Positions 1 through 12,083 of a stretch of DNA of 64,000 bases are shown here, one piece after another. Position numbers and translations under genes: made by a program. Position 1 is the stretch's first letter, and each line of letters begins with the position of its first letter. The stretch is from Blastomonas sp. (lineage in GTDB: Bacteria; Pseudomonadota; Alphaproteobacteria; Sphingomonadales; Sphingomonadaceae), in contig NZ_JAUCZC010000001.1 of the NCBI RefSeq assembly GCF_030373265.1, positions 1 through 64,000 of the forward strand. Direction: 5' to 3'. Below the pieces are notes generated by a model. It saw only the letters and a program-made list of their open reading frames with translations, had not been told where the DNA came from and searched no databases.

Positions 1-17
1 GCCCATGGCTGCGTAAC

Positions 18-542
18 TTAAACCAAACAGCCTCCGGGAAACCCGGTGCGGTTCACATCCATGATGGCCTGTCTCACAAACGCTGGCCCTTCGTCGCTAT
101 CCTGCAACTCTTCCATATAGACATTAATCAGAGCGATCATTTCTTTTCGCTCGTGTTCTTCGAGTTCAGGATAGCTTACAACTTGTCTGACTGTTTTCTC
201 CAAGAACCCTAACCGAGCACCGTGGTCCCTCATAGCCGGAAGTCCACCATTGCCGTGGTTCCAGACGTTAAAAAGAGCCGATCCAGCAAATCCATTCTTA
301 AACGCAGTGATCTCTTCTGCCGCTTTGTCGCGGTTGATCGGCTTCATGTCGGAAGCGACCACAATGTCATAGACCAGATCGGCACGTTCTAAAATACAGG
401 CTACAATCTTGTAGAATTCAGCTGACCAAGGTTCCACCTCAAACTTTTCTGCGAGGTAAGCACCGCCTTTTGTGTTGGTGCTGTCGAGGAGGTTTGAGGC
501 GACATCTGAAAGTTCTGTCGCGGGATCGGTTATTGTGGCCAT
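18..542 (-). CDS. Hypothetical protein (174 aa), element cargo
   Basis: I do not recognise this family. The protein is acidic and soluble-looking, with no signal peptide or membrane segment. It has a central segment rich in charged helices (residues about 35-75) and a Gly/His-containing patch (NVWNHGNGG). The stop is 18 bases from the window edge, so its downstream neighbour is not visible. No strong ribosome binding site precedes the ATG. It is divergent from nothing obvious and sits in the low-GC element. It could be a defence or anti-defence cargo gene, but nothing in the sequence shows that. Confidence 0.6.
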   Translation of the reverse strand: MATITDPATELSDVASNLLDSTNTKGGAYLAEKFEVEPWSAEFYKIVACILERADLVYDIVVASDMKPINRDKAAEEITAFKNGFAGSALFNVWNHGNGGLPAMRDHGARLGFLEKTVRQVVSYPELEEHERKEMIALINVYMEELQDSDEGPAFVRQAIMDVNRTGFPGGCLV

Positions 543-579
543 GCGCCGTTATAGCGGACGGCCGTTCACCGTGGAAGCG

Positions 580-846
580 TTAGGAAAGTTGCTTGCGGAT
601 AATCCGGTGGATCGTCTTCAATGGGCCGGAGGGAATCTTCCAGCCCAGCTGCTCCGCGATATGGTCGTCACTGCAACTCAGCTGCACCATCCTCAACCCG
701 GCTGTCATTCGCTCAGGATCGCCAATCGCGTCGGGCTTTTCCGGTCGTTCAATGGCGAGGAGGAAATGCCACGAGGATGGCCATGCGGTGATCTGCTGTT
801 GTAGGTCGCGGGCTTGCGCGAGGGTGAGGATAATGGGCGAGGTCAT
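580..846 (-). CDS. Small hypothetical protein (88 aa)
   Basis: Unrecognised small protein with balanced amino-acid composition and amphipathic segments; no signal peptide. No clear Shine-Dalgarno precedes the ATG, and an internal start (MTAGLRM) is possible. An overlapping opposite-strand frame at 472-804 is judged a shadow because its composition is Arg/Cys-rich and it lacks a ribosome site. Called with modest confidence. Confidence 0.4.
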   Translation of the reverse strand: MTSPIILTLAQARDLQQQITAWPSSWHFLLAIERPEKPDAIGDPERMTAGLRMVQLSCSDDHIAEQLGWKIPSGPLKTIHRIIRKQLS

Positions 847-938
847 GCTGTATTTAAGGGACCACGTAGCCTACACGGCTTGCCCATTAGCCCGATGCCT
901 GCTTTCTGCTTTTTCGAATGTTACTCGTGGGGGAGGCG

Positions 939-1877
939 ATGCCGGACAAGCTCTACAAATATAAACCGTTTGGGGTGAACACCCTCCGGGCGATAACCGA
1001 GGCGGAGGTTTTTTATGCCAAGCCTTCCACATTCAATGACCCACTGGACTGCGATCCAACAATCGACATGGATATCGATCGAACCCATTTGGAGCGGCTT
1101 CTGTTTCGAATGTTGATGAGAGATGAGACTGAGGACGATGCTCGAGAGCGGATTGGATACCTTCGTTACATGTCAACGGAATATGGAGATTTTAGAACGG
1201 ACCCGGACGTTGAAAACTACCTCATGCGAATGTTGGCACGGGATATAAAGTCTGAGTTGGATAAGGAGCTGGGTACAGAGGGAGTGCTTTCTTTGTCTGC
1301 TACCTGGCAAAGTGGATTGATGTGGTCGCACTATGCAGACGAGCACCGAGGCATTTGCATTGAATATGACACTCGTGACATCCCACATCCGTGTTTGGGG
1401 AAGGTGGATTACAAAGGTCCGCGCGCTGTCAAAACCAGCGACCTATACCGTTGGAAAGTTCAGGAGCGAACAGATGCCAAGGATCGGGTCTTTCAAACGT
1501 ACTTTTACACGAAGTCAAAAGAGTGGCGTTATGAGCGCGAGTGGCGTGACCGGCGATTCAAAAGCGGTGTAGCGGAAGTTCAATTCCGAACAACAGCTAT
1601 ACTTTTTGGATATCGCTGCAATTCAAGTGTCATCAAAAGCATTGTAAAGTTGCTAAACGACAACCCGGAAATCAAAATCTGGCAAGTGCTTCCAAAGGAT
1701 GAGGGCTTCGGCCTTCGTCGCCAACAGGTTGATAGGCGGGAAATTGACGCATTGGCAATCCGCGAGCCAGGATTCTTGATGTTCAAGGACATCGTTTGGG
1801 ATGACGATAATGCCGACACTGAAGACCTTGGACCAATTGCCGAGATACAAGCCGACGAACCGCCAAAGAAGGATTAG
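939..1877 (+). CDS. DUF2971 domain-containing protein
   Basis: The N-terminus (LYKYKPF...LRAI...VFYAKPSTFNDPLDC) is the hallmark of DUF2971 proteins, followed by the family's central SLS....S.LMWSHYAD.H.GICIEYD segment and the later K..EW.YE.EWR stretch. The whole domain is present (312 aa). The start at 939 is chosen over the upstream 918 ATG because GGGGGAGG lies just before it. Function of the family is not established; members are common on mobile elements and in defence-rich islands. The stop overlaps the convergent small gene by 4 bases. Confidence 0.85.
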   Translation: MPDKLYKYKPFGVNTLRAITEAEVFYAKPSTFNDPLDCDPTIDMDIDRTHLERLLFRMLMRDETEDDARERIGYLRYMSTEYGDFRTDPDVENYLMRMLARDIKSELDKELGTEGVLSLSATWQSGLMWSHYADEHRGICIEYDTRDIPHPCLGKVDYKGPRAVKTSDLYRWKVQERTDAKDRVFQTYFYTKSKEWRYEREWRDRRFKSGVAEVQFRTTAILFGYRCNSSVIKSIVKLLNDNPEIKIWQVLPKDEGFGLRRQQVDRREIDALAIREPGFLMFKDIVWDDDNADTEDLGPIAEIQADEPPKKD

Positions 1878-2080
1878 CCCAGCGCCAGCTTGAGCATGAT
1901 CGCGGTGGTGCGGTCGTTCAGGACGACGACGATCTTGGGCCGGATAGGATTGCGGCATAGGTAGGCATTTAGGAAATGGTCGGTGCGGGCATTTTCGTCC
2001 AGCCATTCAGGCAATTGGGATCGCCATGGTCGGCTTTTATGGTCGAAGTTCAGGTAAGCCTTATAGGGAGGCTCCCTCAT
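1874..2080 (-). CDS. Small hypothetical protein (68 aa), third gene of a coupled trio
   Basis: Starts with an ATG that overlaps the TGA of the preceding gene (ATGA), a classic translational-coupling arrangement, so I prefer this start to the longer one at 2113. The C-terminus (TTAIMLKLALG) resembles the C-terminal region of the first gene in the trio (DDAIMFKLAMW). No known domain recognised; no signal peptide or membrane segment. It is convergent with the DUF2971 gene with a 4-base overlap. Confidence 0.55.
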   Translation of the reverse strand: MREPPYKAYLNFDHKSRPWRSQLPEWLDENARTDHFLNAYLCRNPIRPKIVVVLNDRTTAIMLKLALG

Positions 2081-2328
2081 CGGTTGGCCTGCAAGGGTGC
2101 ATAGGTGAGGCATCTGGGTTTGAGGCTGTCGAACACGTCCTTGAACCTACTGTCGCAATCTGTTTCCTGCCATAGCGTTTTTAGTTGATCCTCATCCAAG
2201 GTCAGGTTCCAGCGATAGCCGATAGTGAATTGCACCTCACGTTCGTTGAGCTGTCGGGTATCGACGCGGAGGCGCGTGACCCTCGCAAGTGTGGTTTGAA
2301 CATCAAATGCTGCGTGGGGCTTTATCAC
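2077..2328 (-). CDS. Small hypothetical protein (83 aa), second gene of a coupled trio
   Basis: A GTG start overlaps the TGA of the upstream gene (GTGA); an ATG start at 2358 would overlap the neighbour by 34 bases and is less likely. The protein is basic at the N-terminus, with a possible beta-rich centre (VQFTIGYRWNLTL) and a helical C-terminal half. Family not recognised. The two four-base overlaps with its neighbours strongly suggest it is a real, co-translated gene. Confidence 0.55.
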   Translation of the reverse strand: MIKPHAAFDVQTTLARVTRLRVDTRQLNEREVQFTIGYRWNLTLDEDQLKTLWQETDCDSRFKDVFDSLKPRCLTYAPLQANR

Positions 2329-2804
2329 GGACGAGCATCCTCGCCGGGCGGCTTCCACATGGCCAGCTTGAACATGATCGCATCATCGCTGGATTTGAAC
2401 TGGATGAGGTAGGTTTCGACGCCTCGCGCCAGCTCAGCCGCATAGTTTTCTCTAGTGATCCCTGCATTCGAGACACCAACCTGAATGGCTACGCGGTTTA
2501 GCAGCCGGCGGCTGATGTTGGTCGGCAAGCCTAGCACGGTGACCGCAACCTTCTCATTGCTATCCGTGGATAGCAGGGCAATTCGCTCGATCAAATCCGT
2601 GATGCGATGGTAATCACCGCATTCACGCGCTTCTTGCTCGACAGTAATGCGCTTTATCTCTCGCCACTCATCAATGGTGAGATCACCCACCATTTCTCGT
2701 CGAGCGATGGTGTATCTGTCCGGTGTTAAGGTATGAAGGTATTCTGCCACTCTGTCGTATTCCAGTGTCGTGACGTTGAACTTGTAGGGATAGTGGTCGG
2801 TCAT
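2325..2804 (-). CDS. Hypothetical protein (159 aa), first gene of a coupled trio
   Basis: Well-placed AAGGAG ribosome site 8 bases upstream of the ATG. It is a soluble protein with a helical N-terminal half and a C-terminal FKSSDDAIMFKLAMW segment. I do not recognise a named domain. It heads a leftward operon of three small genes joined by GTGA and ATGA overlaps, and is divergently transcribed from the gene at 2986 across a 180-bp regulatory gap. Confidence 0.65.
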   Translation of the reverse strand: MTDHYPYKFNVTTLEYDRVAEYLHTLTPDRYTIARREMVGDLTIDEWREIKRITVEQEARECGDYHRITDLIERIALLSTDSNEKVAVTVLGLPTNISRRLLNRVAIQVGVSNAGITRENYAAELARGVETYLIQFKSSDDAIMFKLAMWKPPGEDARP

Positions 2805-2876
2805 TGTAGTTCTCCTTTCCTGACCCCCTATTTACGCAGATGGCTAACTCAGATTTTGCAGTGAGTCCGCGTCACC

Positions 2877-2933
2877 GGAAAAGAGTGAAATCAAGTCCAA
2901 AGAGTGGATGACGCAGGAGTCGGGCGATGTCTT
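2877..2933 (+). promoter_or_regulatory. Repeated upstream element, copy 1
   Basis: This 57-bp stretch matches 4888-4945 at 38 of 57 positions, with conserved blocks GGAAAAGAGTG, AGTxGATGAC and GATGTCTT at near-identical spacing. Both copies lie upstream of rightward small genes in the element. The second half reads as the start of a short peptide (see the entry at 2908). Confidence 0.5.
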
Positions 2934-2979
2934 TTACGATGATGTCGGCGCAATAGTGCAGCTGGCAAGATCGGAGTAA
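2908..2979 (+). CDS. Possible 23-aa leader peptide (MTxESGDV type)
   Basis: ATG at 2908 opens a 23-codon frame ending with TAA 6 bases before the next gene's ATG; its last codons contain the GGAG that serves as that gene's ribosome site. The first eight codons encode MTQESGDV, and the paralogous site at 4920 encodes MTGESGDV. Four of the five codons that differ change only at the third base. That pattern suggests selection on the peptide. The frame is actually open upstream to 2848, so a longer or decayed protein is an alternative. Confidence 0.35.
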   Translation: MTQESGDVFYDDVGAIVQLARSE

Positions 2980-2985
2980 CTCACA

Positions 2986-3414
2986 ATGGCTAAGTTCAAC
3001 CCCTCGCTGCTCGTTCCTGCAAACGCCCAGGCAGCAGCTTCCGCGCAGCGCAGTGCAAAGGAGGTCGCACTTGCAAACATTGACAAGCAAAAGCACCTCT
3101 TCAACACTCCGGAGGACAAGGAAGGCAAGCGGACGTTCAAATCCGTCGATGGCGGTCGGGTGCAGTTCACTCTCAGGGTCAGCAACACTCCGCTGGTTCT
3201 CGGTCAGTATGAGGTCGATGGTGTGAAGGCTGATGTTCGCGAGATGACCGTCCCGGCGGCAAACTTTGCTGAGGCGCTCGACTATTTCGCGGACAAGCTG
3301 AAGGCTGGAGAATTTGACGGCCAGCTGGCTGCGCTGGATGAAAAGAAGACTGCCCGCACTGCAAAGCTGCGCAAGACCCGTTCGGAGAAGAAGGCGGAAG
3401 CAAAGCCTGCATAA
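2986..3414 (+). CDS. Hypothetical protein (142 aa), paralogue of next gene
   Basis: Starts 6 bases after a putative leader peptide, with GGAG at good spacing. It is charged, with a Lys/Ala-rich C-terminal tail (residues about 115-142) suggestive of nucleic-acid binding or disorder. The central part (RTFKS..GGRVQF....NTPLVLGQ) and the following helix (ANFAEALDYFADKLKAGEFDGQLAAL) align with the downstream gene's RSWKLG..NAIRF....GNPVLIGG and helix, so the two appear to be tandem diverged duplicates. No family recognised. A strong rho-independent terminator follows. Confidence 0.7.
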   Translation: MAKFNPSLLVPANAQAAASAQRSAKEVALANIDKQKHLFNTPEDKEGKRTFKSVDGGRVQFTLRVSNTPLVLGQYEVDGVKADVREMTVPAANFAEALDYFADKLKAGEFDGQLAALDEKKTARTAKLRKTRSEKKAEAKPA

Positions 3415-3433
3415 CTGCAAGCCACCTCAACCC

Positions 3434-3465
3434 AAGCCCCGGTGCTAGTCACCGGGGCTTTTTTG
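3434..3465 (+). terminator. Rho-independent terminator
   Basis: A perfect 10-bp stem (AGCCCCGGTG / CACCGGGGCT) with a 5-base loop is followed by six Ts, 20 bases after the stop of the 142-aa gene. Confidence 0.85.
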
Positions 3466-3534
3466 CTGTCTGCTGTTGACCTCTGGTTAAGATTGTGTGC
3501 CTATCGCGCCAGCATCACACTTGTGGAGATCGAA

Positions 3535-4092
3535 ATGGCAGGCTTTCTGGAATTCATCGACAACACACTGGGCACTCATTTCGATGCACCAGTCTATGAC
3601 CCCTCAAAGGGCCGGAAGAAGATGGTGTCGGTAATCGACAAAGCGGCAGCACAGCACAATGAGGGAAAGACACCTCCCACGCGCTCGTGGAAGCTGGGCA
3701 GCAACAATGCCATCCGGTTTTCCCCAAAGATCAATGGCAATCCCGTGCTGATTGGTGGTGAAGCTGAGAACCATATTCCAGCTGATCGCTTTCAGGACTT
3801 CCTTGCCGGATTGAAGGCCGCAGTTGAGGCGGGTGATTTGGACGAGGAGATCAAGGCCGCGCTGGAAGGCGAGCAGGGCAGCACGGCTAAGCCAGCCCGC
3901 AAGCGCACCACATCATCCTCAAATGCCGATAAGCCTTGGGCTGTTCGGAAAGGCTGGGGAGAACTTTCGGCTGAGGATAAGCGCGCTGTTAGCTCACGTT
4001 ACCGCTGGGGCAAAAACCCCGACAATTCGATCATTGCGGAAGCGGGCCATAAGCCGGACGCGCCGATCTCTGCTGAGCGCAAGAAAGCCTAA
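3535..4092 (+). CDS. Hypothetical protein (185 aa) with basic C-terminal region
   Basis: The ATG at 3535 has GGAG about 8 bases upstream; a longer frame back to 3442 would run through the preceding terminator and is rejected. Residues about 45-105 resemble the upstream 142-aa protein. They are followed by a Lys/Arg/Ser linker (PARKRTTSSSNAD) and a second short domain (about 135-185: KPWAVRKGWGELSAEDKRAVSSRYRWGKN). This looks like the core paralogous domain plus an extra C-terminal module. Function unknown; no signal peptide or membrane helix. It is convergent with the DUF2958 gene. Confidence 0.65.
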   Translation: MAGFLEFIDNTLGTHFDAPVYDPSKGRKKMVSVIDKAAAQHNEGKTPPTRSWKLGSNNAIRFSPKINGNPVLIGGEAENHIPADRFQDFLAGLKAAVEAGDLDEEIKAALEGEQGSTAKPARKRTTSSSNADKPWAVRKGWGELSAEDKRAVSSRYRWGKNPDNSIIAEAGHKPDAPISAERKKA

Positions 4093-4099
4093 TAAGGAT

Positions 4100-4127
4100 G
4101 GAGCGGCTGAGACCGATCAGCCGCTCC
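4100..4127. terminator. Hairpin between convergent genes, probable terminator
   Basis: A perfect 11-bp stem (GGAGCGGCTGA / TCAGCCGCTCC) with a 6-base loop sits between the stops at 4092 (+) and 4135 (-). T-runs are short on both sides (GCTTTT on the plus strand), so it may act as a weak bidirectional terminator. Confidence 0.55.
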
Positions 4128-4134
4128 ACCGCTT

Positions 4135-4500
4135 TTAGCCTTTGATGTAACGCAATCGGGAAGCCTCGCTCGCATATTCGCTGAGCGTTTTCGTGGGCTT
4201 CCAATGCAAGTCCTGCTCAATGCGCAGGCCACCCATCAGCTTGAGGCTGGCTAGTTCGTCTAGGCACACATAACCCAACTCGGGTTCTCCCACGCCCAAA
4301 TCGCAAAGGCCGAATGCCAGGCTGCTATCGGGTTCGAGTTCGGTCAGTACCCACGTGCCTGACCCACAGGGGTTGAACAGCTTGACCACAGGTGTGAAGT
4401 CTCGTTCCTGTCTTGTGCCCTTGAGGGGCGCTTGTTCCTGCCAGTTCATCACCAGCTGCTGAACGTCCTCGGGGCGGATCATCTTGAGGAAGTCCATCAT
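4135..4500 (-). CDS. DUF2958 domain-containing protein
   Basis: The order of motifs fits DUF2958, a family carried mainly by plasmids and integrative elements: PVVKLFNPCGSGTWVLTELEPD, then FGLCDLGVGEPELGYVCLDEL, then GLRIEQDLHW and a C-terminal LSEYASEA. Full length at 121 aa. The start lies behind AAGGGAGG and overlaps the end of the upstream gene by 4 bases. Molecular function is not known. Presence supports the mobile-element reading of this region. Confidence 0.85.
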   Translation of the reverse strand: MMDFLKMIRPEDVQQLVMNWQEQAPLKGTRQERDFTPVVKLFNPCGSGTWVLTELEPDSSLAFGLCDLGVGEPELGYVCLDELASLKLMGGLRIEQDLHWKPTKTLSEYASEASRLRYIKG

Positions 4501-4808
4501 GCACCTCCCTTGTGGATAACAGGCTGCTTACCAGACCAGTCGATATTCTCGGCAATCCATGCGGGGACGAACTCCCAATCGAATGGCTGGTCATACTGGT
4601 CTTTGACCTCTGCCCAGGCGGCGTCGATCTCATCTACCCATTCAAGCACGGTGAGACGCAGGCCGCTTGTGCCGATTTCCTCGCGGATGCGATTGGCCTT
4701 TGCGCGCAGACCTTTTTGCCCTGCACCGCCGTTGAGAATTTCGAGAACGGCTTGCCATGCGACGGCTGCTGTTTCCAAACTGCTTGGGGGATATTGCTTG
4801 CTTGTCAT
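4497..4808 (-). CDS. Hypothetical protein (103 aa) upstream of DUF2958 gene
   Basis: The start at 4808 has AAGGAG 6-7 bases upstream, so the longer frame to 4841 is rejected. It is acidic overall with two helical stretches and a Trp-rich C-terminal half (YDQPFDWEFVPAWIAENIDW). Not recognised. It ends inside the first codons of the DUF2958 gene (TGA overlapping ATG), so the two are co-transcribed and likely coupled. Confidence 0.65.
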   Translation of the reverse strand: MTSKQYPPSSLETAAVAWQAVLEILNGGAGQKGLRAKANRIREEIGTSGLRLTVLEWVDEIDAAWAEVKDQYDQPFDWEFVPAWIAENIDWSGKQPVIHKGGA

Positions 4809-4887
4809 GTGGCTCTCCTTGTTTTGCCACAAGAACATCAAGCGCCTTCGGGCTGGGAGAGCAAGAACAAGGGTGGTCGGAGAGAAG

Positions 4888-4945
4888 GGAAAAGAGTGGC
4901 CGGTTGCGCCAGGAAGTAGATGACTGGTGAATCAGGTGATGTCTT
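4888..4945 (+). promoter_or_regulatory. Repeated upstream element, copy 2
   Basis: Partner of the element at 2877-2933: same GGAAAAGAGTG block, AGTAGATGAC and GATGTCTT at one base longer spacing. An ATG at 4920 behind AGGAAG opens a 31-codon frame beginning MTGESGDV, which overlaps the start of the following gene in another frame. Confidence 0.45.
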
Positions 4946-4977
4946 GATGTCCTTGCATGGAACAGGAGACACACGCC

Positions 4978-5151
4978 ATGCAGATCGATCTCAGTGCGCT
5001 CGCAACCTTTGTTGAAACTCTGGACTGTAACGCAGAGTTTGAAGATGATGCGTTCGCATTCACTTTTGATGATGTGCGCGTCTACTGCGAGCGCAAGCGT
5101 AGGCACTTCAACCTGCACATTGGTGCAGAGGTGCTACAAATGCCCCGCTAA
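4978..5151 (+). CDS. Small hypothetical protein (57 aa)
   Basis: The ATG at 4978 follows AGGAGA with 7-base spacing; an ATG at 4957 in the same frame is possible. It is a small protein with an acidic N-terminal half and a basic FDDVRVYCERKRRHFNLHIG segment. Not recognised. It stands alone downstream of the second copy of the repeated element, parallel to the arrangement at 2986. Confidence 0.5.
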   Translation: MQIDLSALATFVETLDCNAEFEDDAFAFTFDDVRVYCERKRRHFNLHIGAEVLQMPR

Positions 5152-5174
5152 GGGGTCTGCGCGGTTTGATAGGT

Positions 5175-5621
5175 CTAGAGTGCGCCTAATTTGCGGGCGC
5201 GGTCGGCCAGCTTCTCATATCGCCCGCCAACGATCTTACCGAAGTGGCGACACCACGCCGCTAGAAATGCCGCTTCTTCCTCACGGCGCTTGGCTTTGCC
5301 GAGAATGACGGCGATACGCCATGGATAGTAGGGCGCTGGCTGGTCGCCTTTTATAAACCAGTTATCCAGGCTTTCGTTCACAATGGCGATTTGCCTGCCA
5401 AGGTCATTGTCGATTGACCGCAGTTCGGCACGAAATGCCTCCTCCGATTGGTTGAGGATCGTGAGGCCGCCTGAAGCCTGCCCATATGTCTTGCCTTGCA
5501 GCATCGTAGGAAATGCAGCTGCAAACGACGCCCTAAAGAGGTCACTTGCCTGATGGCGAGGTAGGATTGCGGTCGTGTCGAGGCGATGGGTTATCTCACT
5601 CAATTCCTTTTGGAAGTCCAT
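5175..5621 (-). CDS. Hypothetical protein (148 aa) downstream of the recombinase
   Basis: Strong AAGGAG ribosome site upstream of the ATG. The protein is mostly alpha-helical, charged and soluble, with no recognised domain, signal peptide or membrane segment. It lies 55 bases after the recombinase stop on the same strand, so it is probably co-transcribed with it; a recombination directionality factor is one possibility to test, although such factors are usually smaller and basic. Confidence 0.65.
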   Translation of the reverse strand: MDFQKELSEITHRLDTTAILPRHQASDLFRASFAAAFPTMLQGKTYGQASGGLTILNQSEEAFRAELRSIDNDLGRQIAIVNESLDNWFIKGDQPAPYYPWRIAVILGKAKRREEEAAFLAAWCRHFGKIVGGRYEKLADRARKLGAL

Positions 5622-5676
5622 CGCTGTCTCCTTTGTTCGCAGTCTGTCCTATTTCCGTCCCTGCTGTCCAGAGCAT

Positions 5677-7458
5677 CTATAAGGCGCTTTGGTGTATCTG
5701 GTATTCGGCTTCGGGAAAATCAGGATGCCAGTCGATCTCACCATTGGGACCAAGGAAGGTTGTGCCTTGACCGTGTTCCTTTCCGATCAACTCACCTTCC
5801 TGATTGTATGACAAGCGCAGCGCATTGGCACCAATTACGATGTGCATGTTGCGCTCAGTGTCACATTCCATCGACTTGATGAGACTGTTGAGCGTTTGCT
5901 TCATCGCAACCCTGGCTGCATTTCGTGTTTCCGCATCATCTGAGAACACCGAAGTCTGCTGGTGGTCGATTAGCGCGAGAAAATCCGGGGAAGGGGAGGA
6001 GGATCGCAAGGACATCAGGTGCGCTTCAAGCGAGGCTATCTCTTTGGACTGTTCTGCGGCCTCTGCCTCAAGTTCAAGCATCAGCCGCTCCATTGTGGCG
6101 CTGTTGGTCCTGACGAAGCTAACGGCGGCATTGGCTGCTTGGGCTTGCTTGTCCTCCAGGTAGCGCCTCGCCTCTGCAACCTGCACCTCAACGTCTGAGA
6201 TGTCGGCAGTTGGAGCGCCTAACTGGTTTTGGGCAAGCCATCCTGACACGAGTTCGACAACCGCCTTTTCCAGTTTCTCGTATCGGACCCAATTTCGGTT
6301 CGTGCAGCGCGGTATGCCTCGCTCCTCGTCATGAACTCGATTGAGGGCGTTATGGCATTTCAGGTAGCTGAAGCTCTGCTTTGCAACATATTTGAGGTGC
6401 GGTGTTTTGCTATATCGCCTCAGGGCACCTTTCTTCACCGTTGTTTCGAGCTTCATCCGACCATCACAAACGCCGCATTTTGCGATGCCGGAAAAAAGGT
6501 TGTCGTGGGTTTTCTTCCATGAACCACTCGTGCTTTTCCTGGCTTGCCGTGCCGCGTGAGCCTTTGCGAAGGTCACGGGGTCTATGGCTTGTGGATAATG
6601 GTTGAGGACGACGACGCCTTTGCTGGTCATGGGACCACTGCGCGGCTGGTTCATCGGGTTGTATTCCCCCATAACCGCACGGTTCAGCACTAGCTTGGTC
6701 AGATAGCCGACGGTCCAACCATTGTTGCTTTTCTGTCCTAGGTGGTTCCAGACGGGTTCACCTCGCGCATTCAGTATTTTTGCAATCGACGGAGTGCCAT
6801 GCCCGTCAATGGTAAGCTGGAATATCTCGCGGAGGATGGCGACCCGATTGAGGTTTAGGGTCATCTTGTAGGCTGGTCGATCTGCTGCCTTGGTGATTCG
6901 TTTTGTGTCCAACCAAGCGGGCACGGTGGAGGTGTAACTGATATGTTGCCCAGCTGTTGACTGTGCCACCTCAACCTTCCGGTTATGCGCAGCGCGCAGG
7001 CGCTTGCTCTTTTTCTCGCTTTCCTCGCGTGACAGTTCCGACTTGACCACCGCCTCAATAACGCTCGTCATCGAGACGCGCTCATAGGCCGGGTAAACCC
7101 GGTCACCATCCACAGTTGCGACTGTTACGCCTTGGCTGGTCAGCTTTTGCAGGAAAGGCAGGATCGCATCGTAACCTTGGCGGCTGATGCGGTCCAAATT
7201 CTCGACGACCAGGACGTGCCCGTTCCGATAAAGCCCTGCTTCTGCTTCCTGCTCAAAAGCGAAGAGGAGGCCATGCTCTGACCTGTTTTTCCCGGTGTAG
7301 GCGCTGAGGCCTTCATCGACCAGCTCGCGGGCTGCTGAACCCTGCCAACCGCGTCGGGCTATCATGTCCCTGCACAGGATCAACTGGCGTGCCTTGCTGT
7401 TGCCTAGGGCTTGCTCGGCGTTTGAAAAACGCGCGTAAATTGTTGCTGGTAGCGTCAT
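5677..7458 (-). CDS. Large serine recombinase (site-specific integrase of the element)
   Basis: Resolvase/invertase catalytic domain at residues about 5-160: the YARFS motif puts the nucleophile at Ser12, and VVENLDRISR supplies the conserved arginines. A recombinase domain follows (about 180-290). A zinc ribbon comes next (about 328-390: KCGVC then LKC and PRC), then a coiled-coil stretch (about 420-490) typical of phage-type integrases. The start at 7458 has GAGGGG before it; the longer frame to 7497 lacks a site. The gene begins about 50 bp from the comEC junction, as expected for an integrase beside its own attachment site. It catalyses integration and, with a directionality factor, excision. 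Confidence 0.95.
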   Translation of the reverse strand: MTLPATIYARFSNAEQALGNSKARQLILCRDMIARRGWQGSAARELVDEGLSAYTGKNRSEHGLLFAFEQEAEAGLYRNGHVLVVENLDRISRQGYDAILPFLQKLTSQGVTVATVDGDRVYPAYERVSMTSVIEAVVKSELSREESEKKSKRLRAAHNRKVEVAQSTAGQHISYTSTVPAWLDTKRITKAADRPAYKMTLNLNRVAILREIFQLTIDGHGTPSIAKILNARGEPVWNHLGQKSNNGWTVGYLTKLVLNRAVMGEYNPMNQPRSGPMTSKGVVVLNHYPQAIDPVTFAKAHAARQARKSTSGSWKKTHDNLFSGIAKCGVCDGRMKLETTVKKGALRRYSKTPHLKYVAKQSFSYLKCHNALNRVHDEERGIPRCTNRNWVRYEKLEKAVVELVSGWLAQNQLGAPTADISDVEVQVAEARRYLEDKQAQAANAAVSFVRTNSATMERLMLELEAEAAEQSKEIASLEAHLMSLRSSSPSPDFLALIDHQQTSVFSDDAETRNAARVAMKQTLNSLIKSMECDTERNMHIVIGANALRLSYNQEGELIGKEHGQGTTFLGPNGEIDWHPDFPEAEYQIHQSAL

Positions 7459-7472
7459 CGTCCCCTCAATGC

Positions 7473-7515
7473 GTTGGGAGGGGTTAAAATATCCCAACTC
7501 CTATAACGGTATTAC
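7473..7515. other. Probable attachment-site junction (element / comEC)
   Basis: An inverted repeat GTTGGGA...TCCCAAC (arms 7473-7479 and 7492-7498) lies just inside the element. The comEC-like reading frame becomes recognisable from about 7505 (ITGAEVPTIRS). The crossover must lie near 7495-7515; the exact core needs comparison with an unoccupied comEC or the other end. Confidence 0.55.
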
Positions 7516-8713
7516 CGGCGCGGAGGTTCCGACGATCCGCTCGTGCGCGGCGGCGCTGCTGGTGCTCGCGGCGCTGGCGCTCGGGCGCGATCCGGTGTCA
7601 CCGCGGCTGATCGCGGCAGGGGCGATGCTGGTGCTGGTCTTCTGGCCGGAAACGCTGATGGGGCCAAGCTTTCAGCTGAGCTTTGCAGCGGTCACCGCGA
7701 TCATCGCGTTGCATGATCACCCGAAGATGCGCGGCTGGGCGACGGCCGACCTGTCGTGGCCGGGCCGCCTCGCGCGGTTTCTCGCCATGCTGTTCCTCAC
7801 CGGGCTGCTGATCGAGTTCACGCTGATGCCGATCGCGCTGTACCATTTCAGCAAGGGGGGGCTGTATGGCGCGTTGGCCAATATGATCGCGATCCCGCTG
7901 ACGACCTTCGTGATTATGCCGCTTGAGGCCATCGCGCTGCTGCTCGACATCGCAGGGCTGGGCGCTCCACTGTGGTGGCTGTGCGGTGCGGCGCTTGATG
8001 CGTTGCTGACGCTCGCGCACGCGGTTTCCGATGCACCCGGCGCGGTGACGCTGTTTCCCAAGATGCCGCCCTGGACGTTCGCGCTGTTCATCTTTGGCGG
8101 GTTGTGGGTGTTCCTCTGGCGCAGCCGCGCGCGCTGGCTGGGACTGGTTCCGATCGCGCTGGCCAGCGTGCTGGTCGCCCTGCAACCGGTGCCCGATCTG
8201 CTGATCACCGGCGATGGCCAGCATATCGCGATCACCGGACAGCAGGGCCAGATGGTGGTGCTGCGCGCGCGCACCGGCGATTTTGCGCTGCAGACGCTGA
8301 GCGAAAGCGCGGCGTTCGAGGGGGAGCCGACCGCGATGGAGGACTGGCGCGAGGCCAGCTGCAGCGCCGAGTTCTGCAGCTTTGCGCTGCCAGGGGATAC
8401 GCGGACGTTCACCGCGCTGGTCGGGCGCAACCGCGAGCGGGTGCCCGAGCGTGCGCTCGCGGCAGCTTGCAGGCGGGCCGATATCGTTATCGCCGCCCGC
8501 TGGCTTCCGCGCAGCTGCCGCCCGCGCTGGCTCAAGGTCGATCGGGCGATGCTGGCACGGACCGGCGGGCTGGCGCTGTATCTCGATCAGGGGGCAGTGC
8601 GCACCGTGGCTGCCAATCATCGCGGGCATCCGTGGTGGGACAGGGCGGTGGCGCTGCGCGAGGCGGATCGGGAGGCGAAGCGCGCCGCCCGGTTCAGCAC
8701 TCCACCACGTTGA
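7505..8713 (+). pseudogene. comEC: comEC, 3' fragment (N-terminal half displaced by the element)
   Basis: From TGAEVPTIRSC onward the protein follows the Competence domain of ComEC/Rec2, the inner-membrane channel for transforming single-stranded DNA: GPSFQLSFAAV, repeated hydrophobic helices, LYHFSKGGLYGALANMIAIPLTTFVIMPLE. A degenerate beta-lactamase-like C-terminal region follows (about the last 160 residues). About 400 residues remain of the roughly 700 expected. The N-terminal OB-like domain and first helices are absent upstream, where element DNA begins. The frame runs open into the element, so a short chimeric product is possible but unlikely to work. The end overlaps the convergent serine ammonia-lyase gene by 20 bases. 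Confidence 0.85.
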
Positions 8714-10076
8714 CCGCGAGCCCGCCCTGCGAGGTTTCCTTGTAACGCTCGTTCATGTCGAGCCCGGTGCGGCGCATCGTTTCGATCACCTCGTCGAGGC
8801 TGACCCGGTGGGTGCCGTCGCCCATCATCGAGAGCCGTGCCGCCTCGATCGCCTTGACCGCGCCGACCGCGTTGCGCTCGATGCACGGCACCTGCACCAG
8901 CCCCGCGACCGGATCGCAGGTGAGGCCCAGATTGTGTTCCATGCCGATCTCGGCAGCGTTCTCGACCTGCATCGCCGAACCACCCCAGGCGGCGACCAGC
9001 CCGGCTGCGGCCATCGAGCAGGCGACCCCGACCTCACCCTGACAGCCGACTTCGGCACCCGAGATCGAGGCGTTCTCCTTGAACAGCGAGCCGATCGCGG
9101 CGGCGGTCAGCAGAAAGCGTTCGACCCCGGCCTGGTCCGCGCCCGGCGCAAAGCGGTCGTAGAAGCGCAGCACCGAGGGCACGATGCCGGCGGCGCCGTT
9201 GGTCGGTGCAGTGACGACCTTGCCGCCTGCCGCATTCTCCTCGTTCACCGCCAGCGCCCACAGGTTGACCCAGTCGATGACGGTGAGCGGATCGGACAGC
9301 ATCCGTTCCTGCCGGGCCATCAGATGCGCCATGATCAGGGGCGCGCGGCGCTTCACGCGCAGGCCTCCGGGAAGCTCGCCGCCGGTGCGGATGCCGCGAT
9401 CGATGCAGGCTGACATCGCATCGGCAATCTTGGCCAGCCCGGCGGACAGCGTGTCGGCATCGCACGCAGCCAGTTCATTGGCGCGGGTGATCTCGGCGAT
9501 CGACATCCCGGTGCGCTCGGCGATCATGAGCAATTGCGCGCCCGAGCCGAAGACGTGCGGCGGATCCCACAGCCCGCCTGCGGCCGGGGCATTGGCTGCG
9601 GTTTCATCCTGATCGACCACCGCGCCGCCGCCGACCGAGAAATAGGCGCGCTGTTCGATCTGCGCTCCGGCGCAATCGAATGCGGTGAACGTCATCGCGT
9701 TGGAATGATAGTCGAGCCGCTCGCGCTGCAGAAACAACAGGTCGCTGTTTTCGTCGAAAGCGATGCGGTGGCGCTTGCCCAGCAGGATATCGCCCGAGCT
9801 GCGGATCTGCTCGACCAGCCGGTCGGCGGAGTCGGGATCGCAGCTCACCGGTTCTTCCCCAGCCAGCCCCAGCAGAATGGCACGGTCGCTGGCATGGCCC
9901 TTGCCGGTCAGCGCGAGGGATCCGTAGAGCCTGGTCTCGATCCGCACGACGCGGTCCAGCACCCCAAGCTCACGCAGCCGTACGACGAATCGGTTGGCAG
10001 CGACCATCGGCCCCATGGTGTGCGAGCTCGACGGCCCGATGCCGATCTTGAAGAGGTCGAAAACAGACGCGACCAT
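8694..10076 (-). CDS. sdaA: L-serine ammonia-lyase (single chain, iron-sulfur type)
   Basis: Converts L-serine to pyruvate and ammonia in the cytoplasm. The N-terminus has the family signature [11 protein letters not shown] (residues 13-23) and the 460-aa length matches the one-chain enzyme with fused beta and alpha domains. Cysteines in the C-terminal half ([32 protein letters not shown]) supply the 4Fe-4S cluster ligands, ending with a Cys near the tail as in this family. Convergent with the comEC fragment; the S9 peptidase gene starts upstream on the same strand with 21 bases between them. Confidence 0.95.
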
Positions 10077-10097: not shown

Positions 10098-12083
10098 TCA
10101 GTCTGCCGAGCGGCCCTTGGCGCCGAGCAGGTGGCGTTGCCAGAACGCCAATGTTGTCCAGAACAGGAAGTCGGCATTTTCCTTGCGGCGAAAACCATGG
10201 CCCTCGTTGCGCGCCAGCAAATGCCAGGCGACGCCGCCACGCGAGCGCACCGCATCGATGATCTGGTCCGCCTCGCTCGCGGGCACCCGCGGGTCATTGG
10301 CACCCGTTACCACCAGCAAAGGCATCTTGAGCTCGTCGACTCGCGTGAGCGGGCTGATTTCCTCCAGCTTGGCGCGCAATTCGGGCACGCGCTCGTCGCC
10401 ATATTCGAAGCGTCTCAAATCCCGGCGGTATTCCTCTGTATTTTCAAGAAAAGTAACGAAGTTCGAAATCGCAACGATGCAGTTCGCGGCGTTGAACCTG
10501 CGGCTGTAGCGAATGGCGCTGGCATAACACATATAGCCGCCATAGCTGCCTCCGGTGACTCCGAAGCGTTTGGGATCGAGCATGGGATGCTTGCCGAGGC
10601 GATCGAGCAGCGCGCCGATATCCTTGACCGAGTTTTCGCGCAGGAATGGGCCGTTATCCAGGCTGACGAACCGTTTGCCAAAGCCTGTCGACCCCCGGAC
10701 GTTGGGATAAAACAGAGCGATTCCAAGCTCATTGATCAGATAGTTGCTGCGACCTAGGAAGCCTGCCGTGGCCTGGCCCTCCGGTCCGCCATGGATCGAC
10801 ATGATCAGCGGGCGTTTGCCGGGATGGCGCTTGGCGTCGGGACGGTAAAGCAGACCGGATATCGGCTCGCCATCGAAGCTCTGGATCTCGATCAGTTCGG
10901 GCAGGACGTTGTCGGCAGGGTCGAGTCCACCGGTTTCGCTTTCGGTCCAGCGGGTGATCCGCAGCGTGGCCGGATCGAGACTGTAGGCATCACCGGGCGA
11001 CTGGTTGGAATAGACCGTGAACCCCAAGGTCCCCCATGGCGCGAACTTCATGCCCGCCCCGATCTCCCCGGGGGGAAGCCCCGCCACGGGACGCTTGGCG
11101 CCGCTGTCAATATCGTACAGGTAAAGCCTGGAAAAGCCTGCCTCATTAACGACATAGGCAATGGTCTTGCCGTCGGCTGCAATATCGAAATTGCTGATGT
11201 CCCAGCGTTCTCCATCGATCATCGGGGTGAAAAGTCCCGTGGTCGGATCGAGCACGCCGATCCGCTGCACGTCCGAATCCTTGTCGCTCGATACCCAAAG
11301 CTGGCCATCGGGCGCGAATTTGAGCGTCCCGTACGCAACCGGCGTGGCATCGCGGGTCACCTTGCGGATCTCGCCGCTCGCCACATCGATGATATGCAAC
11401 TGGCTATCGGTCACCGAGATATAGTTGAACACCAAAAGTTCTTGGCTGTTGGGGGCAAAGTCGATCGCCACCCAGCCGCCGCTGTCGCTGGACAACACCA
11501 GCCGCGCCGACGCGGGATCGCGCGGATCCATCACATAGATATCGTTATACACGCCGGTGCGCATGTTGCTGCCAAACGCGACCAGTGTGCCGTCACCCGA
11601 CCAAGGGCCCAGCGTGTGACGGCTTTTGCCATCGCTCAGCAATGTCATCCGGCCGACGTCGAGCGCGTAGATCTGCGAAACTTCGTTGCCGCCAGCATCC
11701 TTTTCGACCAGCAGCATCGACCCGTCGGGTGACCAGCTGCCGCGATAGATCGGCTCTTCCTCGAAGCTGATCTGGCGCCGCGCGCTGCCCGGCGCGGCGA
11801 CGCGGTGGAGTTGCGAGACATTGCCGAACCGCGTGGTGATCAGCATCGAGCGGTCCTGGGGATGCCAGCCCGAAAAGCTGGCTGTGCGGTACTCCAGATA
11901 TGGCCGGGTGTCGGCGACCAGCGACAGCGGGATGGGCGGAACGCCATCGGCCAGCATCGCGACGGGCGGCGGCACGGCAGGCTCGGCGATGGCGCTTTCC
12001 TGGGCGATGGCGGACACCATAGTGGTCAGCATCCAAACAGCGCACAGGCACGGTGCAACTGCCCGCCATTTCCGTCTGCCCAT
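10098..12083 (-). CDS. S9 family prolyl oligopeptidase-type serine peptidase, exported
   Basis: An N-terminal signal peptide (about residues 1-27, ending near SAIAQ) is followed by a beta-propeller of TolB/WD40-like PD40 repeats (about 60-400) and an alpha/beta hydrolase domain (about 410-655). The triad is visible: Ser513 in GGSYGGY, Asp597 in TGANDPRVP and His629 in NEGHGF. The enzyme probably cleaves short peptides in the periplasm; specificity (dipeptidyl or acylaminoacyl) cannot be read from the sequence. It is divergent from pabBC across a 130-bp gap and precedes the serine ammonia-lyase gene, suggesting linked amino-acid catabolism. Confidence 0.9.
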   Translation of the reverse strand: MGRRKWRAVAPCLCAVWMLTTMVSAIAQESAIAEPAVPPPVAMLADGVPPIPLSLVADTRPYLEYRTASFSGWHPQDRSMLITTRFGNVSQLHRVAAPGSARRQISFEEEPIYRGSWSPDGSMLLVEKDAGGNEVSQIYALDVGRMTLLSDGKSRHTLGPWSGDGTLVAFGSNMRTGVYNDIYVMDPRDPASARLVLSSDSGGWVAIDFAPNSQELLVFNYISVTDSQLHIIDVASGEIRKVTRDATPVAYGTLKFAPDGQLWVSSDKDSDVQRIGVLDPTTGLFTPMIDGERWDISNFDIAADGKTIAYVVNEAGFSRLYLYDIDSGAKRPVAGLPPGEIGAGMKFAPWGTLGFTVYSNQSPGDAYSLDPATLRITRWTESETGGLDPADNVLPELIEIQSFDGEPISGLLYRPDAKRHPGKRPLIMSIHGGPEGQATAGFLGRSNYLINELGIALFYPNVRGSTGFGKRFVSLDNGPFLRENSVKDIGALLDRLGKHPMLDPKRFGVTGGSYGGYMCYASAIRYSRRFNAANCIVAISNFVTFLENTEEYRRDLRRFEYGDERVPELRAKLEEISPLTRVDELKMPLLVVTGANDPRVPASEADQIIDAVRSRGGVAWHLLARNEGHGFRRKENADFLFWTTLAFWQRHLLGAKGRSAD

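Follow-up and report, generated by a model that had tools for sequence, protein, structure and literature searches.

A large serine integrase element inserted at a fixed AC dinucleotide in comEC of Blastomonas sp., and candidate integrase-moved cassettes at the same site in its sphingomonad relatives

The stretch of Blastomonas sp. DNA analyzed here (the window; 64,000 nucleotides, bases 1-64000 of contig C1 in a genome of 3.66 Mb and 58 contigs) contains, close to its left end, a gene for a large serine recombinase next to the 3' part of the competence gene comEC. This raises the question of what kind of element interrupts comEC and how it came to be there. A first-pass annotation of the window had proposed that a serine-recombinase element is integrated inside comEC, and had compared the situation with that of the Listeria prophages in comK. 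The reading that we consider quite likely is that the locus is the right end of a temperate-phage-type element, and that the large serine integrase encoded by the element would have inserted it at a fixed AC dinucleotide in comEC; cassettes that appear to be moved by the integrases of related elements form part of this explanation. The features on which this reading builds are the following.

5677..7458, minus strand: large serine integrase, 593 amino acids (aa), identified by Pfam and PHROG 95
7497..7508, plus strand: P arm of attP, 12 bp, with its perfect inverted partner on contig C32
7514..7515, unstranded: AC core dinucleotide of attR, inferred crossover, common to attL, attR and the comEC genes of all eight congeners
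7516..8713, plus strand: 3' part of comEC from the B' half of attR onward, matching positions 68-269 of PF03772 (Competence), with the match running from 7502
56..7515, unstranded: right arm of the element in comEC, from the end of an insertion sequence (IS) to the attR AC core; 7,460 bp are visible

The open reading frame (ORF) at 5677-7497 on the minus strand matches PF00239, PF07508 and PF13408, each above its cut-off and all within one protein, and the integrase family PHROG 95 matches 5677-7458 of the same strand (E 7e-58). The likely start codon is the ATG at 7458, 58 bp from position 7516 where comEC coding resumes, in line with the distance of about 50 bp given by the first-pass annotation. 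By its domains, the 2-bp core and the inverted attP arms, the 593-aa protein fits a large serine integrase, and its catalytic activity is predicted accordingly.

Serine integrases integrate by recombining attP with attB, and they excise by recombining attL with attR in the presence of a directionality factor. In the window, ComEC coding resumes in mid-protein, as had been recognized before. The N-terminal half is indeed absent from the window, which starts at the first base of its contig. This half, together with a matching core, had been expected further to the left, and both are found on contig C32 (29086-29322, PF03772 positions 1-72). Apart from these two stretches, the genome gave no match to PF03772. 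On C32, the 5' part of comEC is cut at the base that matches the break in the window and ends in the matching att half; ComEC is interrupted after ...YTLLT, and the reading frame enters foreign DNA and stops after ...LLTSAL. When the two halves are rejoined at their common AC, an uninterrupted comEC results that reads in frame through GIAYTLLTGAEVPTIRSC (...LLTGAEVPT...). When the outer arms are joined, they form attP, whose 12-bp arms ACTCCTATAACG and CGTTATAGGAGT are perfect inverted repeats centred on the AC. In the interrupted state, a start at 7469 would yield a 414-aa chimeric protein with the 3' part of comEC.

The unoccupied site could be defined from relatives without the element, as had been proposed. 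In all eight congeners comEC is a single open frame of 748-881 codons that continues across the insertion point without any element, and the sequence at this point reads AC[C/T]GG. This motif is also read in 17 further comEC genes; as it was the site model that supplied them, only the eight congeners are unbiased. The attB set was drawn from 29 loci, of which 26 aligned and 25 passed the mismatch limit, 17 of the 25 coming from the site model. Thus, attB, attL, attR and attP could all be placed to an AC dinucleotide, and since symmetry, coding and relatives agree, we infer that this dinucleotide is the crossover. The low G+C content ascribed to the left flank was borne out as well: in 500-base windows it is 49-57% left of the junction at 7516 versus 58-71% on the right, up to 20 kb. 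An element occupying comEC would be expected to block DNA uptake by the ComEC route, and this loss of competence would presumably be reversed by excision.

The site is used by other elements. A scan of genome contigs identified five relatives of the integrase, four of which (56-71% identity) lie directly beside a comEC 3' half; these are from Sphingomonas Leaf34, Sphingomonas PP-CE-1A-559, a Sphingomonas metagenome-assembled genome (MAG) and a Sphingobium MAG, and the fifth (L043, 38%) is not beside comEC. A search of 295 genomes at E <= 1e-100 gave seven integrase matches in six genomes: six at at least 56% identity beside comEC, three of them already found, and one (L090, 39%) that, like L043, has no comEC within the flanks fetched, mostly 1.5 kb. 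Altogether, eight distinct elements were found at the site, in the window's genome and in genomes G397, G398, G399, G400, G484, G488 and G535. All eight, whose integrases are at least 56% identical, split comEC into two complementary pieces at this position; the window integrase is 56-71% identical to those at the identical site in the seven other genomes, and the named relatives belong to Sphingomonas or Sphingobium. Because all eight congeners have an intact comEC and seven other elements use the same site, the insertion is not a matter of chance, and the proposal of a serine-recombinase element inside comEC holds.

In the flanks fetched, more distant integrases were not accompanied by comEC. 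Among 397 genomes of the family, none of 17 further matches (E <= 1e-30, 26-44% identical), which include a second integrase of the window's own genome, has comEC in the locus fetched, mostly 1.5 kb on each side. That second large serine recombinase (C7:75715-77205) is 33% identical to the one in the window, and the locus fetched for it likewise holds no comEC. No relative of the integrase was found in viral contigs, and a phage collection gave five partial matches with 22-39% identity.

The nature of these elements is clearest in G398 and G397, which have both comEC pieces on one contig with cores 49.9 and 48.7 kb apart, respectively. Seven of nine scanned G398 proteins gave matches among families of the head, the tail or packaging (terminase, portal, head morphogenesis, major head, tape measure and two of the tail-fibre type). 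Because seven proteins match virion or packaging families, the G398 element is, by its gene content, a prophage. At the other extreme, G484 has merely 4.29 kb between its comEC cores, again on one contig, holding the integrase and left-end genes. For the element in the window, the arm on contig C32 contains a TIR-domain protein, small genes, a phage endolysin and then an IS, and in the way of virion and packaging genes this element has yielded the endolysin only. The TIR-domain protein (PF10137) matches the PADLOC candidate PDC-S35 (E 1e-73) and lies where relatives carry cassettes.

Contig C32, L003:9495-10403: TIR-domain protein (CAP12/PCTIR type), directly inside attL

The middle part of this element was not located, and none of the G398 phage proteins (ORFs of at least 120 aa) match contigs C33-C58 or the fetched stretches of C14, C23 and C29. 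The element may be damaged or incompletely assembled.

In four relatives (G398, G397, G535 and G399), extra copies of attL are present inside attL, all in the orientation of attL. Each copy consists of a constant right half, P' (GCGTTATAGGAGTCAA plus some further bases), and a left half, b, that resembles a comEC half-site; with O for the core, we write them b-O-P'. Site-to-site spacing is 0.5-1.8 kb, and each stretch between sites, which we call a cassette, contains one or a few genes on either strand. Among the contents are a VOC/glyoxalase protein, an HNH nuclease similar to type IV restriction enzymes, two DUF7946/7947 proteins (one of them scoring below the Pfam cut-off), a trypsin-like protein that weakly matches LmuA, and unknowns. 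When a profile built from 12 internal sites was run over about 405 kb of element DNA, it gave 22 matches, all on the plus strand (the comEC strand, except in a viral record): the 12 model sites themselves, one of which is in that unplaced viral record, the eight outer attL sites, and the following two array sites in addition.

G535 at 4761: additional array site, E 3e-11
G398 at 5370: additional array site, E 0.002

Against a matrix of 25 comEC attB sites, 11 of 13 b halves (12 of the 13 being distinct) rank with the top 1.5% of 5,854 background windows anchored at AC. With up to six mismatches allowed, a search for the attR-type pattern (P-O) returned the outer attR sites and nothing else, and the internal borders are b-O-P'.

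An exact-repeat test detected no arrays near L174-L181 (six genomes, integrases 32-44% identical), L043 and L100; the test is a weak one, as it missed one of three positive controls (G398). The site pattern with one mismatch matched four of the 397 family genomes, one being the window's own; the three other loci, where neither comEC nor a second site was matched, look like chance matches and were rejected. Viral contigs gave two matches to the pattern. One shares the 100 bp of site G397_4, so that it presumably represents the Leaf34 prophage; the second lies in the unplaced 40-kb record IMG/VR 2887985739_000002, with one cassette-type site at about 35.6 kb; a small gene and, by eye, transposase-like ORFs lie alongside it, and the record has no comEC match. 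A palindrome is present just upstream of b in three cases (the VOC cassette, G399_3 and G535_3). These palindromes (GTCCGC...GCGGAC type), judged by eye, we take to be repetitive extragenic palindrome-like. A glyoxalase locus without the cassette also has such a palindrome near the end of the similarity.

Comparison of the arrays suggests that cassettes change place. G397 and G398 are collinear, with 90% identity over 1.5 kb of comEC plus the glyoxalase cassette and 95% over the 3.55 kb compared of the phage DNA beyond the array. The HNH cassette is the second in G397 and the fourth in G398; the two copies are 84.6% identical, and the match spans from site to site (G397 2873-4068, G398 4214-5408).

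A second case is G540, a genome of another species, where comEC is interrupted by the glyoxalase cassette alone (702 bp core to core). Its identity with the cassette copies of G535, G397 and G398 is 99.2-99.6%, and the flanking comEC sequences are only 68-75% identical. The borders of the cassette are exact to the core, and removing it rejoins comEC in frame. At E <= 1e-100, the integrase has no match in the G540 genome, and neither it nor the G398 phage proteins match anything in the 8.5 kb that were fetched around comEC. The glyoxalase cassette also matches 11 plasmid records, the best of which is 82% identical and covers bases 71-661 of 707. Because both cassette ends are absent from this plasmid homologue, the ends seem to belong to the cassette and not to the glyoxalase gene. 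Two other cassettes, searched for in plasmids, had no match there.

Screening for further cases, we found that the site model matched 88 of the 295 genomes at E <= 0.01. Only the nine above 25 bits were counted: the six element genomes, G540, and the weak matches G507 and G687. Sixteen of 21 loci with weaker matches (L120-L140) carry both comEC halves and an intact attB; left out were L124, L128, L129, L134 and L140, and matches without a locus. In the 397-genome family sample, two genomes were matched by the model at E <= 1e-4: that of the window itself and G095, the latter being an intact comEC attB. An element or cassette in comEC is present in 7 of the 295 genomes of the searched genus, a low prevalence. 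The weak matches in G507 (L118, ~1500; 27 bits) and G687 (L119, ~1500; 25 bits) are b-O-P'-like sites outside comEC, that of G507 adjoining an Mrr-type restriction endonuclease gene.

These data suggest that the integrase moves cassettes as well as the phage, and standard serine-integrase chemistry is enough for the moves that we propose. Were the phage to excise by way of attR and an inner b-O-P' site, the outer cassettes would remain in comEC together with a b-O-B' site, and G540 has the b-O-B' structure expected after excision at an inner site. The remaining b-O-B' could act as a new attB for the next phage, whose integration would give the observed order B-O-P'[g1]b-O-P'[phage]P-O-B'. Excision at the outermost attL would instead carry the cassettes away with the phage. 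Direct insertion of a cassette circle would produce identical DNA, so that here it is indistinguishable from the phage route. Whether the phage integrase in fact runs a cassette system, in which cassettes composed of B-like and P' half-sites are stacked, dropped and picked up at comEC, and phage-free cassettes block DNA uptake while offering the next landing site, appears to us to be evenly balanced.

Several observations weigh against this. No internal cassette site was found in the element of the window, which has the outer attL site only (26.5 bits by nhmmer, 47.3 bits by the site model), so that the ladder is argued from relatives; moreover, the G398 portal has no match in the whole genome of the window, in a search run without a positive control, and this element may be a dead remnant. 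Two of the 13 internal sites do not have the AC core (AG in G398_4 and AT in G535_4) and are probably dead, and the b halves of G535_4 and G693_1 are indistinct from background, 16% and 9% of the background windows, respectively, having scores as good as theirs. The HNH cassette in G398 has the changed-core site G398_4 as its left border and a weak right site (E 0.002). Homologous recombination plus one cycle of integration and excision could explain the two moved cassettes.

Taken by itself, the idea that cassettes are shuffled by homologous recombination between repeated P' stretches and not by the integrase is rather unlikely. Repeats of 33-76 bp with 84-99% identity do occur within arrays (e.g., 76 bp at 98.7% in G535), and the altered core of G398_4, to the left of the moved HNH cassette, would suit this explanation. 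However, G540 has no second P' on the right; there the cassette joins comEC at the core as b-O-B', and the comEC flanks share just 68-75% identity with those of the array genomes compared. Because of this joint without a second P' and the divergent flanks, homology does not explain the right border in G540. We regard as unlikely, too, a history of accretion and decay, in which several phages entered comEC one beside the other over time and were then deleted except for their left ends, the sites being fossils without a cassette function. The 4.29 kb left in G484, the missing portal match in the window's genome and the two internal sites with a changed core agree with such decay, but random deletion is not expected to set successive right borders on b-O-P' sites, one and the same cassette occupies positions 2 and 4 with its borders at sites, and the 702-bp cassette of G540 joins comEC exactly at the core.

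A system of the integron type, with folded attC-like sites and a tyrosine integrase, shares with the ladder the one or few genes per cassette, the single site orientation and the site plus gene as a unit. Nevertheless, the adjacent recombinase is a serine recombinase (the genomes were not searched for IntI), cassette genes lie on either strand, and 12 sites, tested on one strand, do not fold clearly better than shuffled sequences (z from -2.06 to +0.59). The integron reading, very improbable in our judgment, was rejected on the recombinase class and the absence of clear site folding. Finally, the comEC halves of the window's genome do lie on different contigs, as they would if unrelated contigs happened to end in comEC pieces. 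Such an assembly artefact is hardly credible, though: the joints lie within contigs and not at their ends (C1 base 7,515; C32 base 29,321), and G397, G398 and G484 have both halves on one contig around the insert.

The cassettes, with the proposed role of a phage integrase in moving them, can be compared with known systems. Mobile integrons carry small attC cassettes with a site at each border, in one orientation and changing order, moved by a tyrosine integrase. The ladder is alike in its small cassettes, border sites, single orientation and changed order; it differs in its serine recombinase, its attL-type site without clear folding, its phage vehicle and its genes on either strand. In the staphylococcal cassette chromosome mec (SCCmec), the Enterococcus cassette chromosome and integrative and conjugative elements with their cis-mobilizable elements (ICE-CIME), recombinases stack elements at one att site, including elements without a recombinase, and each SCC/CIME unit has the attL and the attR of one and the same target as its borders. 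In contrast, each cassette of the ladder ends in its own B-like half, which is not comEC, and measures 0.5-1.8 kb. Listeria prophages of the A118 type, which use a serine integrase, split the competence gene comK. The comparison made in the first-pass annotation is a fair analogy, with the differences that comK encodes a regulator and that regulated excision is established there; to our knowledge, no cassette ladder is known from the comK prophages.

As an analogy, Phi1207.3 in comEC is closer than the Listeria comK phages. The Streptococcus pyogenes prophages Phi1207.3 and Phi10394.4 (52.5 and 58.8 kb) are described as sitting in the comEC coding sequence at GA, and Phi1207.3 as carrying three serine recombinases and accessory genes (PMC4260502). 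They resemble the elements described here in their insertion at a fixed dinucleotide in comEC, and Phi1207.3 does so in its serine recombinases as well; they differ in host group, in the core (GA, not AC) and in having three serine recombinases versus the one found here; the parts of that article available to us describe no attL-like site array or cassettes (PMC4260502). Phi1207.3 was not among the five matches in the phage collection, whose inclusion of this phage was not checked. The Variovorax prophage VAI-C_pp_2 is another one in a ComEC/Rec2 gene of a proteobacterium; it differs in its tyrosine integrase and its core (PMC9658991). Mobile elements that break comM are discussed for Acinetobacter (PMC11472951). 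Related papers are one on the Enterococcus cassette chromosome (PMC6222049) and a review on integrative mobilizable elements (PMC5704250). Among titles and opening lines of abstracts of open-access articles in PubMed Central, with preprints and subscription papers outside this scope, none concerned a Sphingomonas comEC prophage or serine-integrase cassettes of this type.

Prophages in competence genes are a known kind, to which Sphingomonas and Sphingobium relatives, with their exact att sites, can now be added. The element belongs to a group of comEC-targeting serine-integrase prophages of sphingomonads, and four of its relatives have what appears to be a phage-borne cassette system. If the integrase does move the cassettes, phages would own a cassette mechanism for accessory genes and candidate defence genes. 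Such a mechanism would be a counterpart of the integron cassettes that is independent and built on a serine recombinase, and a single gene that also decides on DNA uptake would hold a trackable record of past infections.

The remaining features at the left end of the window are listed below.

1..55, minus strand: terminal segment of an IS3-family insertion sequence, at which the contig breaks off
918..1877, plus strand: DUF2971 protein, PHROG 1762, function unknown (Pfam, PHROG)
2986..3414, plus strand: protein of unknown function with a G398 prophage match (45% over 175 aa, 2914-3411)
3535..4092, plus strand: protein of unknown function with a G398 prophage match (61% over 153 aa)
4135..4500, minus strand: DUF2958 protein with a G398 prophage match (55% over 118 aa)
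5175..5621, minus strand: 148-aa protein adjoining the integrase (translation)

In G484, a similar 148-aa protein likewise adjoins the integrase, as seen when the translations were compared by eye. The element continues leftward beyond the start of the window. The terminus at 1-55 is also present at the starts of contigs C23, C29 and C40 and at the end of C32, and it matches 187 plasmid records, the 20 best of which are 92-96% identical, several being annotated as IS3 family transposase. Thus, the IS3-family terminus occurs at five contig ends (C1, C23, C29, C40 and C32), and a pattern search for the opposite terminus, allowing up to two mismatches, gave C14 as the sole candidate. A single IS copy bridging C32 and C1 was ruled out, because both contigs finish in the same IS terminus. 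To the right of comEC, two long ORFs are present on the minus strand (8694-10076 and 10098-12083), which by eye we take to encode an L-serine dehydratase and a prolyl oligopeptidase-type peptidase, respectively.

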